Shown here: one piece after another, positions 9,230 through 49,602 of the stretch
How the letters are laid out: every line of letters starts with the position of its first letter
Position numbering within the stretch: position 1 is the first letter of the stretch
Virus record (IMG/VR): IMGVR_UViG_3300042261_002390
Location: 182,150-246,149 of that record
From: a virus
Direction: 5' to 3' (one strand)
Length of the DNA: 64,000 nt
Made by a program: the position numbers and the translations under genes
Notes under the pieces: model-generated
Told to the model about the DNA's origin: nothing
Databases searched by the model: none
Seen by the model: the letters and a program-made list of their open reading frames with translations, nothing else

Positions 9230-9443
9230 AAAGCTAAGTACTGATGAACTTTGTGACATTATTGTAACTAAGATTGGCGTACCGTTACCAACATATAGTT
9301 ATGACTATAGGAAATATGTTTCTGTAGTACCTCAAAATATTAGTTTTGGTGATGGTGTTAAGGGAATTGAAAATGCTGATTTACACAATACATTTAGAGA
9401 GGCATGTATGCGTATAATATTTTGGGATTTGGATAAAACGTAA
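9219..9443 (+). CDS. Hypothetical protein, 74 aa
   Basis: I place the start at ATG 9219, inside ATGGATTATAA overlapping the preceding stop. The protein begins MDYKKLSTDELCDIIVTKIG. A longer in-frame reading from 9102 would run through the zinc-ribbon gene in another frame and is unlikely. No motif recognised. Confidence 0.65.
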   Translation: MDYKKLSTDELCDIIVTKIGVPLPTYSYDYRKYVSVVPQNISFGDGVKGIENADLHNTFREACMRIIFWDLDKT

Positions 9444-9484
9444 ATAGTTAAAATTCTTTACTATTTATATATAAAAAAATTTCT

Positions 9485-10259: not shown

Positions 10260-10266
10260 ATGTTTT

Positions 10267-10397
10267 ATAACATGATGTAGCTAACCGAAGTTGGCGATTA
10301 CGAAGCACAAACTTTCAAACTAAAAAAATGTTTAATCGAAGCACAACAGTTCATATCAGCACTATACCGCCAATTTTGGTTAGCTGCATCACGTTAT
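10267..10397 (+). repeat. attC-like imperfect inverted repeat 1
   Basis: The left arm at 10267-10296 begins ATAACATGATGTAGCTAACC. The right arm at 10368-10397 ends TTAGCTGCATCACGTTAT. They pair over about 30 bases with four mismatches. The 71-base loop contains the direct repeat CGAAGCACAA twice (near 10301 and 10337). Confidence 0.6.
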
Positions 10398-10420
10398 GTG
10401 CCGTTTTTAAATAAATTATT

Positions 10421-11047
10421 ATGGCTGGAATTGATAAAACTTACACAGACTCTTATAAAGATTATAAAGAGTTTAAAACTTGGGCTGATAACCAAAAATT
10501 AACGTTTTTTGACGGATTAACTGTATGTATTGGTGATTGGGTTTGGCAATATGAAAAGGACGATTTTACAAATGGTGAAATTCCTATTATGAATACTCCA
10601 ACTTGGTTGGATATTTACTTAATTCAAAATTGTAAAACTTGGTTTGTTTTAGATAGAATGAAGTCTGTTTATGGTGAAGAATCATATAAAGAATTTCAAA
10701 ATATTGATTTAACAGCAAAACCACCATCCGACTTTAAGCAGAATAGAAAAATTACAATAAAGCCGAATAAAAATTGCAAGTTTCCATTTAAGAAAAGAAT
10801 GTTTAGCAAGCCAATTGGAGGTAAAACTAAATGGTGGCTGCAATGTGAAAATGATTTTTGGTATAATAATGAAACTAAAAGATGGGTGAGTTATGAAACA
10901 CAATATCCACATAACACTAATACTGCTCATATTACTTCTACTAAAGCATTAGTAAGACATCTACGAAATCAATATTTACCTAAAGGGGTTGTATTTACAA
11001 TTTCGGGTAGATATGTTGGAGAAGAATACATTGCGGTAGTGTCTTAA
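10421..11047 (+). CDS. Cassette-borne hypothetical protein, 208 aa
   Basis: Trp-rich and Lys-rich, with CIGDWVWQYEKDDFTNGEIP and KTKWWLQCENDFWYNNETK. It starts 23 bases after attC-like repeat 1 and ends just before repeat 2, so it fills one cassette. No known domain recognised. Confidence 0.7.
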   Translation: MAGIDKTYTDSYKDYKEFKTWADNQKLTFFDGLTVCIGDWVWQYEKDDFTNGEIPIMNTPTWLDIYLIQNCKTWFVLDRMKSVYGEESYKEFQNIDLTAKPPSDFKQNRKITIKPNKNCKFPFKKRMFSKPIGGKTKWWLQCENDFWYNNETKRWVSYETQYPHNTNTAHITSTKALVRHLRNQYLPKGVVFTISGRYVGEEYIAVVS

Positions 11048-11048
11048 A

Positions 11049-11191
11049 TGGCACATAACGTGTTGCAGCTATGCGCTGAATGGGGATTGTACCCACGAAA
11101 CTTAAAACGAATAACAAAACTATGAATACTAACAATTTATCCAACGAGAGCGAAAACCCCATTTTGCGTATAGGTGCGGTTAGCTGCTGCC
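11049..11191 (+). repeat. attC-like imperfect inverted repeat 2
   Basis: The left arm at 11049-11084 contains GGCACATAACGTGTTGCAGC, then TATGCGCTGAATGGGG. The right arm at 11156-11191 begins CCCCATTTTGCGTATA and ends GGTTAGCTGCTGCCG. The inner 16 bases pair with three mismatches. The right end overlaps the 5' coding region of the HAD gene. Confidence 0.55.
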
Positions 11192-11694
11192 GTTTTATTT
11201 TTCTCGATATTGACGGGGTGATAGCTACACCAAAAACGGTAGAGCATGGAATGTGGGCTTTAACACCTGAAAAACAAGATTTACTTGGAATGATAATAGA
11301 AAAAACAGGTGCAAAGATTGTGCTTAGTAGTAGCTGGCGAAAACATACAATTGAAGATACTATTGAACACATGAAAGAACATGGGTTTAGATTCTGTGAT
11401 GAAATTGTAGGCATAACAATTAGAGCTTATCAATATTTACAAAAAGGCGTTCATTTATCAATTCCGAGAGGTGTAGAGATTAAGCAATGGATTGATACGA
11501 ATATTCATTCAAATAATGGTAAAGATTGGAACAGAAAGGAATTAGGCAAAGATTGGAATTATGTGATTTTGGATGATGATTCCGATATGCTTTTAGAACA
11601 CAAAGATAATTTTATATGTTGCGATTCAATGGAAGGTTTAACTCTCGAACAAGCAAACAAAGCTATCGAGGTGCTTTCTTACGGTTGCAGCTAA
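11080..11694 (+). CDS. Cassette-borne HAD-superfamily phosphatase-like protein
   Basis: The HAD core starts at FIFLDIDGVIAT (Asp nucleophile), has motif II in IVLSSSWRKHTIED, and an acidic pair in VILDDDSDMLLEHKDNF. This matches compact HAD proteins of the Swiss-Army-knife RNA repair type. The region before the HAD core is odd: it is translated from the attC-like palindrome and is not protein-like. The real start may be ATG 11122 or a later unusual codon. It is distantly related to the HAD protein at 4919-5440 but was probably acquired separately. Confidence 0.7.
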   Translation: MGIVPTKLKTNNKTMNTNNLSNESENPILRIGAVSCCRFIFLDIDGVIATPKTVEHGMWALTPEKQDLLGMIIEKTGAKIVLSSSWRKHTIEDTIEHMKEHGFRFCDEIVGITIRAYQYLQKGVHLSIPRGVEIKQWIDTNIHSNNGKDWNRKELGKDWNYVILDDDSDMLLEHKDNFICCDSMEGLTLEQANKAIEVLSYGCS

Positions 11695-11714
11695 CGGTTG
11701 GCGGTATGGCATAG
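11682..11714 (+). repeat. attC-like half-site 3 (left arm)
   Basis: GGTTGCAGCTAACGGTTGGC followed by GGTATGGCATAG, closely related to the arms of repeats 1 and 2. Its inner part GCGGTATGGCATAG is complementary to TTGCTATACCGC at 11955-11967, beyond the next gene. Confidence 0.4.
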
Positions 11715-11748
11715 TTATTTTTTCTATCACAAAACTAAATTAAAAGAT

Positions 11749-12066
11749 ATGGCTTATGATATTTATGGACAAAACTTAGCGAGCGGACACTGTGAGGTGC
11801 ATCCGTGGGTGGGAGAAAGTTACCCTTGCTCTTTGTGTTACGCAGAAAGCAAGCCTAAGCACGACCCAAGACAAAAAGAGTATGAACGTGCGGAGGCAGA
11901 ATACTACGCTGAAATGGAGCGAGCGCACTACGAAGAACTGGCAAGAAAAAATAATTTGCTATACCGCATGTTATGCTATGTGGCACTTGCAGTAAGCAAA
12001 TTAAATGAGCGAGTTCAGAAATACAAGGAAAAAATGTTAAGCAGAGTGGTGCAAAAGCGCCATTGA
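11749..12066 (+). CDS. Cassette-borne small zinc-binding-like protein, 105 aa
   Basis: I prefer ATG 11749 over 11698, because the first 17 codons of the longer frame translate the attC-like arm. The protein begins MAYDIYGQNLASGHCEVHPW and contains the Cys/His set HCEVHPWVGESYPCSLC, a probable zinc site. A long charged helix follows. Its last ~35 residues run into the next palindrome, so the 3' end may be a cassette-junction extension. Confidence 0.6.
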   Translation: MAYDIYGQNLASGHCEVHPWVGESYPCSLCYAESKPKHDPRQKEYERAEAEYYAEMERAHYEELARKNNLLYRMLCYVALAVSKLNERVQKYKEKMLSRVVQKRH

Positions 12067-12075
12067 GCATAACTC
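11955..12075 (+). repeat. attC-like imperfect inverted repeat 4
   Basis: The left arm near 11967-11985 contains CATGTTATGCTATGTGGC and the right arm near 12057-12075 contains GCGCCATTGAGCATAAC. GTTATGCT pairs exactly with AGCATAAC. This marks the downstream edge of the island, after which base composition returns to A+T-rich. Confidence 0.4.
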
Positions 12076-15666: not shown

Positions 15667-16407
15667 ATGGAAATTTATAAAATTACGAACACGATAACAA
15701 ACGATTTTTATATTGGTTCTGCTGTGAACTTTAAAAATAGAAGGTGGGGTCACATTAGTTCTTTGAGAAAAAATAAGCATAAGAATCGATTTATTCAAAA
15801 TTCTTGGAATAAATATGGTGAAAATGCATTTATTTTTGAAATTATTGAAATTGTTGATGCTAAAGAAAATTTGATTGATAGAGAGCAATATTGGATTGAT
15901 ATCTTATCACCAACATTTAATTTGGCTAAGAAGGCAGGTAGTCCTTTAGGTGTTAAACATTCTGAAAAATCAAGAAAGAATATGTCATTAGCACATAAAG
16001 GATTGTCTAAAGAACAACGAGGACATAAAGAAAATTGTAATTGTTGTATTTGTAATCGTAAAAATGGTAATAATAGTCCACGATATATACAACGTGAAGA
16101 AAGAACATGCATTTGTGGATGTGGTACTAAATTTACTTGTAGAATTAATAGTAATAGAAAATTTATTTCAGGTCACAATAAATCACAATTAGGTAAGAAA
16201 AAAAGTTATGAAGCTATCGAAAAACAAAGAAACAAAATATTAACCCCAATATTACAATTTGATATTAATGGCAATTTAATTAAGGAATGGAAGGGCGTTA
16301 TTATTGCAGCAAATGAATTAAATATTGATAATACTGCAATTTCTGCCTGTTTAAGGGGAAAATCAAAAACATCTGGTGGATATATTTGGAAATATAAATT
16401 TAAATAA
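15667..16407 (+). CDS. GIY-YIG homing endonuclease
   Basis: 246 residues. The N-terminal GIY-YIG nuclease is visible as MEIYKITNTITNDFYIGSA, the Arg in NFKNRRWGH, and the metal-binding Glu in LIDREQYWIDIL (about residues 1-95). DNA-binding NUMOD3-like motifs follow (GVKHSEKSRKNMS, LSKEQRG). A Cys-rich stretch comes next (NCNCCICNRK, CICGCGTKF), then a C-terminal NUMOD1/IENR1-like helix-turn-helix (ILQFDINGNLIKEWKGV, AISACLRGKSKTSGGYIW). It cleaves a specific DNA site to spread itself. It stands between genes rather than in a visible intron. Confidence 0.9.
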   Translation: MEIYKITNTITNDFYIGSAVNFKNRRWGHISSLRKNKHKNRFIQNSWNKYGENAFIFEIIEIVDAKENLIDREQYWIDILSPTFNLAKKAGSPLGVKHSEKSRKNMSLAHKGLSKEQRGHKENCNCCICNRKNGNNSPRYIQREERTCICGCGTKFTCRINSNRKFISGHNKSQLGKKKSYEAIEKQRNKILTPILQFDINGNLIKEWKGVIIAANELNIDNTAISACLRGKSKTSGGYIWKYKFK

Positions 16408-16414
16408 TTTAATT

Positions 16415-17566
16415 ATGAAGATAAGTATAATTCTTGGCGCATGTTTCGGAGACGAGGGTAAAGGTGCTTTCGTCAATTATCTGTGTAATAAAACAGACAA
16501 ACCATTGGTTGTTAGGTTTAACGGTGGTCAGCAATGTGGACATACTGTAGTATATAATGGAAACAGACACGTATTTTCAAATTTCGGTTCTGGAAGCCTT
16601 CGAGGTGTTCCGACATATTGGTCAGAGTATTGTACCTTAGACCCGATTGGTTTTAAAAATGAATTAGCATCGTTGAACCAAATTGGTATTATGCCAAAAA
16701 TAGTTTATAATGCTAATGCAATGGTGACTACACCTTTTGATAAATATCAGAACCATAAGCTCAATGCAATAAACAAACACGGTAGTGTTGGAGTTGGTTT
16801 TGGAACAACTATTCAACGAAACGAAGACCATTATCACTTATATGTGAGGGACTTACTGTATCCTAAAATCAGGGATGCTAAACTCGAAAATATTTGGAAG
16901 CAGTATTATAAGATATCTGAAATGTCAGGGGATTGGGAAGTTATAATGAATAAGTTTATCGAAGCATGTGATGTTTTTATTAACTATGCGCATTGCGGTA
17001 TAGTAAATTCAATTGATGAGATTTTATACTACGACCATTTAATTTTCGAAGGTGGTCAGGGCATATTACTTGACCAAAATTATGGATTCTTCCCAAATGT
17101 CACACGTAGCAATACAACATCAAAAAATGCAATTGAAATCATCAATAAATTGCCATTGTTTGAAGGCGATAAAGTAATTGATACATATTATATCACCAGA
17201 GCATATCAAACAAGGCATGGCAATGGTTATATGACGAATCAAGATTTAGATATCTCATATATTAAAGAAAATCCTAATGAAACCAATGTGATGGGTTTTC
17301 AGGGTGAATTCAGGAAATCTGTTCTTGATTTAGATTTGTTGAAATATGCTGTTCAATGTGACAAATATCACAATCCTAAGTCAAGGAAGAATCTCGTAAT
17401 TACGTGCCTAGACCAAATTCCAAGTAAGAATGCCGTACCACTTACTTTTGAAGGTAAATTAACACACATGAAACCTAAACAAATAAGTGAATTCTTGCTT
17501 GGAAACAGTATGGAAAGATGTTATCCAACATATTCAGATACCGGATATTCGGATGTACTTCCATAA
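16415..17566 (+). CDS. purA: Adenylosuccinate synthetase (PurA family)
   Basis: 383 residues, shorter than the usual ~430. The GTP-binding and catalytic start is IILGACFGDEGKGAF, with catalytic Asp13 kept. NGGQQCGHT supplies the catalytic His. VGVGFGTTIQRNEDH matches the IMP region, and LIFEGGQGILLD plus FFPNVTRSNTT are family signatures. It converts IMP, aspartate and GTP to adenylosuccinate, the step before AMP. Phage PurA relatives called PurZ make 2-aminoadenine nucleotides and replace Asp13, so the retained Asp argues for classical or PurZ0-like chemistry. A longer start at 16376 exists but lacks homologous character. Confidence 0.85.
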   Translation: MKISIILGACFGDEGKGAFVNYLCNKTDKPLVVRFNGGQQCGHTVVYNGNRHVFSNFGSGSLRGVPTYWSEYCTLDPIGFKNELASLNQIGIMPKIVYNANAMVTTPFDKYQNHKLNAINKHGSVGVGFGTTIQRNEDHYHLYVRDLLYPKIRDAKLENIWKQYYKISEMSGDWEVIMNKFIEACDVFINYAHCGIVNSIDEILYYDHLIFEGGQGILLDQNYGFFPNVTRSNTTSKNAIEIINKLPLFEGDKVIDTYYITRAYQTRHGNGYMTNQDLDISYIKENPNETNVMGFQGEFRKSVLDLDLLKYAVQCDKYHNPKSRKNLVITCLDQIPSKNAVPLTFEGKLTHMKPKQISEFLLGNSMERCYPTYSDTGYSDVLP

Positions 17567-43230: not shown

Positions 43231-44253
43231 ATGCAGCCGATATTATTAACACGTGATGATTTCCGGAATGGCGTTTTTGAGCGTGATTCTCATAAATGCG
43301 TTATCTGCAAGAAACCTGCAGTTGACGCACATCACATTATTGAGCGCAGACTATTTTCAAATGGTGGATACTACATCGAGAATGGCGCATCGCTTTGCGC
43401 TGAACACCATGTTGAAGCAGAGCAAACCACATTATCTTGTGATGTGATTCGTGAAAAATGTGGCATTGAAACTATCGTATTGCCTGACCATTTTTATGAT
43501 GATAATGAATACGATAAGTGGGGAAATATCATATTGCCGAATGGTAACAGGGTTAAAGGCGAATTATTCTATGATGAAAGCGTTCAGAAGATACTGAAAC
43601 AAGGTGGCGTGTTGGATTTATTTGTTAAGTATGTAAAGTACCAAAGAACTTTCCATTTACCGTGGAGTAATCTGTTGAAAGACGATAGAATTCTTGAAAA
43701 CGATAATCATTTTCACGGTAAACGTGTCGTCGTGACACTTAAAATGGATGGTGAAAATACTACTATGTATAACGACCATATTCATGCACGTTCATTAGAA
43801 TCAGCTAGTCATGAAACACGTAATTGGGCTAAGGGTTTATGGTCTAGGATTTCATATTTACTTGATGATAACATGCGCATTTGTGGTGAAAACCTATATG
43901 CAGTTCATTCTGTTAAGTATGAGGAATTACCAACGTATTTTATGATGTTTTCAATCTGGATTGATAACAAATGCTTGTCTTGGGATGAAACCCAAGAATA
44001 TGCCAAAATTCTTGGATTAGAGACAGTCCCGGTCTTCTATGATGGAATTTACGATAAAGACAAAATAATCGCCGAATTCGAGAAATACAGGCTTAAAAAC
44101 GAAGGATATGTTATTCGTTTAGCTGATGAATTTTATTATCAGGATTTCCGCAAATCTATTGCAAAATACGTGCGTCCAGAGTTTAGACAAATCGTCAATA
44201 ACTCACATGGACACTGGATTTCGAAAAAAGTTGAACCAAATAAATTAAAATAA
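43231..44253 (+). CDS. HNH endonuclease fused to RNA ligase
   Basis: 340 residues, two enzymes in one chain. Residues about 1-75 form an HNH/zinc finger: FERDSHKCVICKKPAVDAHH (Cys23, Cys26, His34-35), then ENGASLCAEHHVEAEQ (Cys56, His59-60). Residues about 140-340 form a nucleotidyltransferase: motif I VTLKMDGENTTMY (Lys171), motif III CGENLYAVHSVKY, motif IV NEGYVIRLADEF, motif V SIAKYVRPEF. A cutting and joining pair suggests RNA repair or programmed RNA processing. There is one base of overlap with the next gene. Which end chemistry it uses is unknown. Confidence 0.85.
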   Translation: MQPILLTRDDFRNGVFERDSHKCVICKKPAVDAHHIIERRLFSNGGYYIENGASLCAEHHVEAEQTTLSCDVIREKCGIETIVLPDHFYDDNEYDKWGNIILPNGNRVKGELFYDESVQKILKQGGVLDLFVKYVKYQRTFHLPWSNLLKDDRILENDNHFHGKRVVVTLKMDGENTTMYNDHIHARSLESASHETRNWAKGLWSRISYLLDDNMRICGENLYAVHSVKYEELPTYFMMFSIWIDNKCLSWDETQEYAKILGLETVPVFYDGIYDKDKIIAEFEKYRLKNEGYVIRLADEFYYQDFRKSIAKYVRPEFRQIVNNSHGHWISKKVEPNKLK

Positions 44254-48261: not shown

Positions 48262-49602
48262 ATGGAAAATTATTGTATTAAAACAAGAAAGATTACGATA
48301 ATTCCTTCAGGGGATAATCGGAATGATGTTTATTCGTATATTCGAAAAATGGCATCAGATTTAGCAAGAATTGGTAATGGCGTGATTAGGCTTCACTTTA
48401 ACAATCAATACGATATTGATGAAATATCGAAGTCACGTAATATTACTAAGTCGGATGCAAAGAAATTTGTTGAAGAAAAGCTTGGTACGTCAATTCGTAA
48501 TTCTGGTTATCAATCATTGACTGAGTTGATTGACATATCTTCAAATATTCGCACATCGTTTAATTCATTGATTTTTAAAACAACACAAAATAATTTCTTT
48601 GATGTTTTAACGGGGAAAATGAGTATTCCTTCATTCAGGAAGACCAACATCAATATTCCGTTTCAATTTAAGGGAGATGCTCCGTTTAGTCTGGATGAAA
48701 AAGAATACTATTATTTCAATTTACCCTCAACCAAACACACTAAAGAAACAATCGGTGAACTGAAATTATCGTTGTTCTTTGGAAAAGATAGAAGCAATAA
48801 TCGTATTATTGTCGAACGCATTCTTAGTGGCGAATATGAAATATGCGATAGCTCAATTCAAGTAAAGGATAAAGATTTGTTTTTGTTGCTAACATATAAA
48901 CAGCCAATAAGCGAAAAGCTATTAAAACCTGAAAAAGTAATGGGTATTGATATCGGCATTAATCGTCCGGTAAGTTTTTACATCAGTGATGAAAAACATC
49001 AGCCAAGACAGTTTAATCTTAACGAGCATATACAGCATGAGAGGCTTAAATTGTTGAAACAAAGAAAATCGCTTCAACAATCATTAAAATTTTCTGTTGG
49101 TGGTCATGGTAGAAATCGAAAATTAGTGGCACTGAATGTATTAAAAGAAAAAGAATTACGTTGGGCAAAAAATAAGAATCATCAAATCACTAAAGCAATT
49201 ATTGATATTGCGCTACAGTATGGTGTTGGGGTGATTAAAATGGAAGATTTGACTGGTATTACTCAAGATACTAAAAATTATTTCTTGAAGTCTTGGGCAT
49301 ATTATCAACTGCAAAGCTTCTTGGAATATAAAGCCAAATCCTATGGTATTAAAATCTTATGGGTTGACCCAAAAAATACGTCTAGAACATGTCCTGTTTG
49401 TGGTAATGTCGATAAAGAAAACAGACATAGCACAGTCTTTAAATGTGTAAATGAATCATGTCCAGACCACGATGTTGAAAAAGATGCCGATATTGTCGCA
49501 GCTTTGAATATATCAAAATCAATTGGTTCTGATGTGAAACCTAAATCGAAAAAGGGAATTATCAGTGCTAAGACAAAACAAAAAGATATTGTTGAAGCAT
49601 AA
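48262..49602 (+). CDS. Miniature Cas12/TnpB-like RuvC nuclease (type V CRISPR effector)
   Basis: 446 residues. RuvC-I is VMGIDIGINRPVSFYI (Asp230), RuvC-II is GVGVIKMEDLTGI (Glu328), and RuvC-III is EKDADIVAALNIS (Asp410). A zinc finger lies between II and III: SRTCPVCGNVD and KCVNESC (Cys377, 380, 395, 400). Residues ~1-220 form the recognition part, with GKMSIPSFRKTNINIPF as in TnpB-like proteins. The usual DxNAA is DIVAA here. It should cut DNA (or RNA) guided by crRNAs from the two arrays. It is smaller than CasPhi or CasLambda (about 700-800) and no Cas1/2 or TnpA is nearby. No IS ends are visible. Confidence 0.88.
   Translation: MENYCIKTRKITIIPSGDNRNDVYSYIRKMASDLARIGNGVIRLHFNNQYDIDEISKSRNITKSDAKKFVEEKLGTSIRNSGYQSLTELIDISSNIRTSFNSLIFKTTQNNFFDVLTGKMSIPSFRKTNINIPFQFKGDAPFSLDEKEYYYFNLPSTKHTKETIGELKLSLFFGKDRSNNRIIVERILSGEYEICDSSIQVKDKDLFLLLTYKQPISEKLLKPEKVMGIDIGINRPVSFYISDEKHQPRQFNLNEHIQHERLKLLKQRKSLQQSLKFSVGGHGRNRKLVALNVLKEKELRWAKNKNHQITKAIIDIALQYGVGVIKMEDLTGITQDTKNYFLKSWAYYQLQSFLEYKAKSYGIKILWVDPKNTSRTCPVCGNVDKENRHSTVFKCVNESCPDHDVEKDADIVAALNISKSIGSDVKPKSKKGIISAKTKQKDIVEA

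Follow-up and report, generated by a model that had tools for sequence, protein, structure and literature searches.

A three-cassette array in a giant T4-like phage and a candidate class of integron-like elements in Bacteroidota and their phages

Small genes lying between long imperfect palindromes in the genome of a giant T4-like phage of 246 kb raise the question of whether they are cassettes of an integron-like system and, if so, of what kind. The window analysed here is a stretch of 64,000 nucleotides (bases 182150-246149) at the end of a 246149-base virus record, in which T4-like replication genes and a terminase are found. A preliminary description of the sequence had pointed to three small genes separated by palindromes with ATAAC...GTTAT ends and a GCAGCTAACC core, in DNA richer in G+C than its flanks. 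All of these features are present, the G+C content being 35.3% in 10272-12073 compared with 28.6% and 30.2% in the 2-kb flanks. The genes do correspond to three cassettes, although the extent of the array is corrected to 10272-12073. It was also held that such arrays are seldom reported in phages; this is so, but they are common in IMG/VR. As judged from sequence comparisons, the stretch is probably (at about 0.82) an array of three cassettes belonging to an integron-like system distinct from the known attC/IntI pair.

Anatomy of the array and its genes

The sites follow a plan of AACG, a 5-nt spacer, a 19-bp covarying stem, a loop of about 70 nt, 1-2 nt and GTTR. The three cassettes were delimited from the sequence, covariance-model matches and cassette ends (Table 1), and the left boundary was set by the AAC/G rule derived from the sister-phage and repeat comparisons described below.

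Table 1. Coordinates of the array features within the window
Feature	Position	Strand	Details
Left array end	10263..10271	+	phage flank ends TTTTATAAC; insertion boundary after AAC at 10269-10271
Recombination site 1	10269..10395	+	AAC - spacer - stem ATGTAGCTAACCGAAGTTGGCG / CGCCAATTTTGGTTAGCTGCAT - GTT
Cassette 1	10272..11059	+	site 1 and 208-aa gene; complementary ends GTTATGTGCC...GGCACATAAC
208-aa protein, function unassigned	10421..11047	+	own ATG downstream of R'
Recombination site 2	11057..11181	+	loop contains ATG (11122) of HAD frame
Cassette 2	11060..11695	+	site 2 and HAD gene; complementary ends GTTAGCTGC...GCAGCTAAC
HAD phosphatase-like protein	11080..11694	+	HAD_SAK_2, phrog_1818; frame enters via site 2
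Recombination site 3	11693..11972	+	AAC GGTTG GCGGTATGGCA ... TGCTATACCGC AT GTTATGC; ~250-nt loop
Cassette 3	11696..12073	+	complementary ends GTTATGCT...AGCATAAC
105-aa protein, function unassigned	11749..12066	+	begins in site 3 loop, reads across R' box
Right array end	12071..12073	+	AAC; then phage flank TCCCAAATATACGC

A scan with covariance models had been proposed at the outset, and a model built from related loci matches two of the sites. Site 1, which is absent from the training set, is matched at 10263-10401 (90.7 bits, E 2e-16) and its single-strand fold has a z of -3.4; the first box of the array is AACA, not AACG. Site 2 is matched at 11051-11187 (83.6 bits, E 7e-15), a copy of it from contig L024 being part of the training set, and its site strand folds at -15.8 kcal/mol versus -9.5 kcal/mol for the complement. 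Site 3 exceeds the length that the model can take. Its left arm starts at 11701 and its right arm, at 11957-11969, ends in GCTATACCGC with R' following at 11970; the stem is present in the minimum-energy fold. The idea that this site is a truncated remnant was rejected once the right arm had been recognised.

The R' boxes of the three sites read GTTATGT, GTTAGCT and GTTATGC. Allowing one mismatch, GCAGCTAACS occurs nine times in the window against 1.75 expected, with four of the nine inside the array stretch. Elsewhere in the 246-kb record no match of the model reaches 20 bits except the one to the reverse strand of site 1, which argues against taking the palindromes for common intergenic repeats of the phage. 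An Rfam search of the window gave no match, and no tandem repeats were found. A search of the phage for an IntI-type recombinase had been proposed; the whole 246-kb record encodes no tyrosine recombinase of the PF00589 family. With three sites in 1.8 kb, two of them full and one with a long loop, the locus thus has the make-up of a CALIN, built however from sites that are not canonical attC; since the phage encodes no recombinase, the array would have to be worked in trans. No empty site was found in relatives, and a search with a flanking gene for sister phages yielded only an identical 10.8-kb contig. The empty site of the phage would be AAATGTTTTATAAC joined to TCCCAAATATACGC.

Homologues of the 208-aa protein, 65-72% identical, occur in four phage contigs, three of which lack recognisable flanking sites at the model threshold. 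One phage with this gene (L042) also has a 69-bp piece left over from the end of the HAD cassette (91% identity), located at 9383-9451 where an array begins. The HAD unit itself (11179-11695) recurs at 86-88% identity in three IMG/VR contigs (L045, L046 and L047), where the similarity ends at the boxes, the DNA outside differs and palindromes of the same kind lie between every pair of small genes. Phage HAD homologues outside cassettes begin MKKYIFLDIDG; each of the four in cassette form lacks its own start and is read as ...VSCCRFIFLDIDG out of a different loop. As the gene is joined to four different sites in four contigs, site and gene do not always form one unit. The stop codon TAA of the HAD gene in the window lies within the R'' box GCTAAC, and 24 of 115 viral cassettes likewise end their gene with the TAA of the TAAC box. 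For the 105-aa protein no family was found, PADLOC gave no match for the three cassette proteins, and a blastn search of the locus against INPHARED phages returned only 59-nt matches, in the HAD gene.

Elsewhere in the window, 48262-49602 encodes a TnpB-like protein (Cas12f1-like TNB domain, OrfB_IS605), and 43231-44253 an RNA ligase that matches HNH endonuclease families in its N-terminal part. By eye, an ORF at 15667-16407, beginning MEIYKITNTITNDFYIGSA, resembles a GIY-YIG homing endonuclease, and the protein of 16415-17566 an adenylosuccinate synthetase of the PurA/PurZ type, which could bear on modified bases of the phage.

The site family and its mobile unit

A first collection of 139 sites came from a pair of pattern scans together with a scanner for AAC-stem-loop-stem-GTT. 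The narrow pattern found only eight stretches from species genomes, one of them from Flavobacterium noncentrifugens. In this genome there are at least four arrays, 12-25 sites long, one of which is headed by a recombinase. Several of its contigs (L105, L106, L107 and L108) end within arrays, and on the gene strand the loops may resemble a Bacteroidota promoter (TTTG ... TAnnTTG). When 41 sites are aligned, AACG and GTT are invariant, both-sided changes are seen in 18 of 19 stem pairs, and one G.T pair is almost fixed (38 of 41). Across 298 sites, GTTR is the only conserved part of R', the following bases being variable.

The covariance model made from this alignment matches 151 of 297 evenly drawn Bacteroidota species genomes at E<=1e-3, where the E-values are rough and the control, consisting of the 146 Bacteroidota genomes without a match and E. 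coli plasmid stretches, is a weaker one. Scoring was limited to 11 candidates per genome, which makes the site counts per genome lower bounds. Four sites are found in the Polaribacter phage P12002S. The model does not match the aadA1 attC of plasmid NR1, nor stretches of phages P12002L and MW202573, for which canonical attC sites are reported, and a Flavobacterium site searched against plasmids gave no match.

The two ends of a cassette vary together. In viruses 6.5 of 9 positions match between the start and the end of the same cassette (null 3.7, n=75 cassettes) and in hosts 7.1 of 9 (null 3.5, n=115 cassettes), with z values of 19 and 29 for end complementarity over the 190 cassettes. Such covariation would be the sequence footprint of an excised circle. 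Among the genes carried by phage arrays are several for DNA methyltransferases, one for an RNA ligase and one for a GIY-YIG protein; one phage array (L219, 1328-7020) has among its cassettes four N6/N4 DNA methylases and a Dam methylase.

Comparison of near-identical copies defines the unit that moves. In F. noncentrifugens and in phages, copies at different places begin and end at AAC; in the former, a 569-bp unit occurs three times with 100% identity from AAC to AAC. The sister phages L020 and L083 share an identical 433-bp unit, again from AAC to AAC. Their backbones are 91% identical, and L020 carries one extra cassette exactly at ATAAC/G: L083 has TTATATTATAAC followed by GGTTTGCAGC of a common, 100% identical cassette, and L020 has TTATATTATAAC, the extra cassette, then ATAAC-GGTTTGCAGC. 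A crossover at R' (GTT), as in attC, was considered and dropped, as the unit boundaries fall at AAC/G. The Polaribacter sister phages P12002S (L140) and P12002L (L141) differ by a block of three cassettes, present in the former and missing in the latter; the flanks are 99.7 and 97.6% identical, and the junction falls 9-14 nt into the site rather than precisely at AAC. In place of the new site class of P12002S, P12002L has small attC sites of canonical appearance. Comparison of sister phages for single cassettes had been suggested as a check on the proposal of integron-like cassettes in a phage, and these differences between close relatives, together with the model matches, support it.

Recombinases, polarity and start codons

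An IntI-like tyrosine recombinase adjoins arrays in many model-positive Bacteroidota genomes and also in IMG/VR contigs. Homologues of the F. noncentrifugens enzyme adjoin arrays in about 15 of 35 genomes searched, by comparison of coordinates, fewer than half of the loci having been inspected singly. Scanned with TIGR02249, all nine array recombinases that were tested fall below the cut-off (190-221 versus 265; IntI1, as a control, scores 509), and the 43-residue insertion of IntI is missing in the eight that were aligned. In a tree of 17 array enzymes, IntI1 and seven Xer proteins, array enzymes and IntI1 split from XerC/D with a support of 100/100, IntI1 sitting on a long branch of unsure exact placement. 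The best structure match of an array recombinase is to XerA/XerC/XerD (NF040815, PDB 5hxy), with the catalytic residues kept; unlike XerC/D, however, the array enzymes form a separate group with an SPFD/SPLD-type tail, as in IntI1. Terminase_6N is present in 5 of 18 virus records checked, including G000, and three of these five also carry an array and the recombinase; at least those are therefore phages.

The strand of a site is fixed by two agreeing asymmetries, the G.T pair and the unequal spacers of 5 nt and 1 nt. Gene and site share a strand in virus contigs, at ratios of about 60:1 in the first set and 144:0 among the contigs reached via the recombinase, whereas in hosts the gene is opposite to the site strand, at 55:2 in F. 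noncentrifugens and about 50:5 over 17 further genomes; this rule rests on the assembly labels viral and cellular. One MAG contig (L059/L064) shows the viral polarity and could be of phage origin. The mobile unit runs site-gene in phages and gene-site in hosts. The recombinase is antisense to the site strand in bacteria and sense in phages. Host arrays lie on the downstream side of the recombinase gene. Among the IMG/VR contigs detected via the recombinase, all 215 model matches are on the recombinase strand and nearly all upstream of it. Of 324 viral sites, 282 have a more stable fold on the site strand than on its complement, as do 86 of 140 host sites; the strand so favoured is the coding one in phages and the non-coding one in hosts.

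In the viral orientation the site often carries a start codon. An ATG in the loop opens a frame extending at least 50 codons beyond R' in 31 of 83 sites of the first viral set, compared with 0 of 79 on the viral reverse strand and 5 of 151 in hosts (p about 1e-11 for the first viral set versus hosts, the host and virus sets having been chosen by different routes). In the second set 70 of 133 viral sites have a loop start codon reading through the site, giving 37-53% of full-length phage sites; the first set came from the site pattern and the second from the recombinase search, so that lineages may overlap and the counts are not independent events. In the window, the HAD and 105-aa frames both start in site loops, the latter reading across R'. 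The preliminary description had seen these frames running through the palindromes and had taken them as a sign of recent joining. The frames stand, but recent joining is not the best explanation, as the phage site moves with the gene that follows it and read-through of this kind is regular.

A mechanism consistent with these observations can be outlined. Each cassette would consist of a hairpin site with a gene behind it. The IntI-like recombinase, which is found in many Bacteroidota and some IMG/VR phage contigs and is absent from the window phage, would most likely fold a single strand of this site. The enzyme would most likely cut beside the AAC/G box, with the cassette moving as a circle, and the circle would insert at another such box, either joining an array or entering a TATAAC-like spot in a phage. 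With the site 5' of the gene on the coding strand of phage cassettes and the loop often bearing the start codon, a captured gene could arrive with its own translation start.

Relation to known integrons and alternative explanations

Integrons are held to be rare in Bacteroidota, and IntegronFinder 2 recorded one complete integron in Bacteroidetes, in Salinibacter (PMC9024848). Canonical attC clusters are known in phages, and five of six canonical phage attC sites work with IntI1 (PMC9892861). The arrays described here resemble canonical integrons and CALINs in being runs of small genes between imperfect palindromes with AAC...GTT ends, in lying beside a tyrosine recombinase of the IntI/Xer branch, with some clusters lacking one, and in the complementarity of cassette start and end. 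The window array might accordingly be read as a CALIN of ordinary cassettes whose divergent attC sites are mobilised by a normal IntI, for which the common topology, the GTT/AAC core, the IntI-like recombinases and the activity of canonical phage attC sites with IntI1 could be cited. We consider this unlikely in view of the site sequence and spacing. The R boxes are extended and covarying, R' being GTTR plus variable bases and not the GTTRRRY that canonical attC combines with an R'' of RYYYAAC, and the spacers of 5 and 1-2 nt do not form a symmetric pair. Neither aadA1 attC nor the P12002L sites are recognised by the model, and a phage-integron survey in which P12002L was tested mentions P12002S nowhere but among its references, though P12002S holds four sites. 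The additional domain of IntI, around patch III, has been described as necessary (PMC9668308; PMC8138268); the array recombinases tested lack this insertion and score below the TIGR02249 cut-off. Phage units, moreover, run from site to gene with a loop start codon, in place of the canonical gene-then-attC order.

In the 'reverse' chromosomal integrons of Treponema, recombinase and cassettes are transcribed in the same direction. The host arrays share this arrangement and differ from the Treponema elements, as these are described, in taxon, site class and recombinase class. Within the open-access literature, which leaves subscription papers and preprints outside its scope, no description of this class of site and recombinase was found. 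On the sequence evidence, sites and recombinase are a separate class centred on Bacteroidota, not a canonical attC/IntI pair, and the integron-like system looks widespread yet unrecognised in Bacteroidota and their phages.

A second alternative, that small insertions or homing elements (GIY-YIG, TnpB, IS) arrived independently and have terminator-like palindromes by chance, is very improbable. A TnpB and a GIY-YIG-like gene do occur elsewhere in the phage and some cassettes encode a GIY-YIG domain, but against this stand a common site family whose stems change in a compensatory way, cassette ends that are complementary on either side of every gene, sharp AAC/G boundaries and adjacency to a recombinase, and the array has no transposase. 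It is rather less easy to dismiss the view that the window array is a dead relic, acquired once and now inherited only vertically, which we regard as possible without favouring it: the recombinase is absent from the record, there are only three cassettes, site 3 is oddly long and the first box is AACA instead of AACG. Against a relic, all three cassettes still have complementary ends, as canonical cassettes do, and two sites score like those of active-looking arrays.

Taken beyond the window, the reading of a separate integron-like system leads to a broader proposal, towards which we lean with some reserve: that about half of Bacteroidota species possess an integron class with hairpin sites and its own recombinase, that the phage form is complete with recombinase, has inverted cassettes and uses the site to provide the start codon, and that polarity keeps the phage and host pools apart. 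Testable predictions about the strand used and the expression of captured genes follow from the inverted phage polarity and from the presence of a start codon within the site. The methyltransferase, RNA ligase and GIY-YIG cargo fits a role in the arms race between phage and host. If the class is real, a major gene-capture system of Bacteroidota would have been overlooked, and their phages would own and exchange such cassettes.
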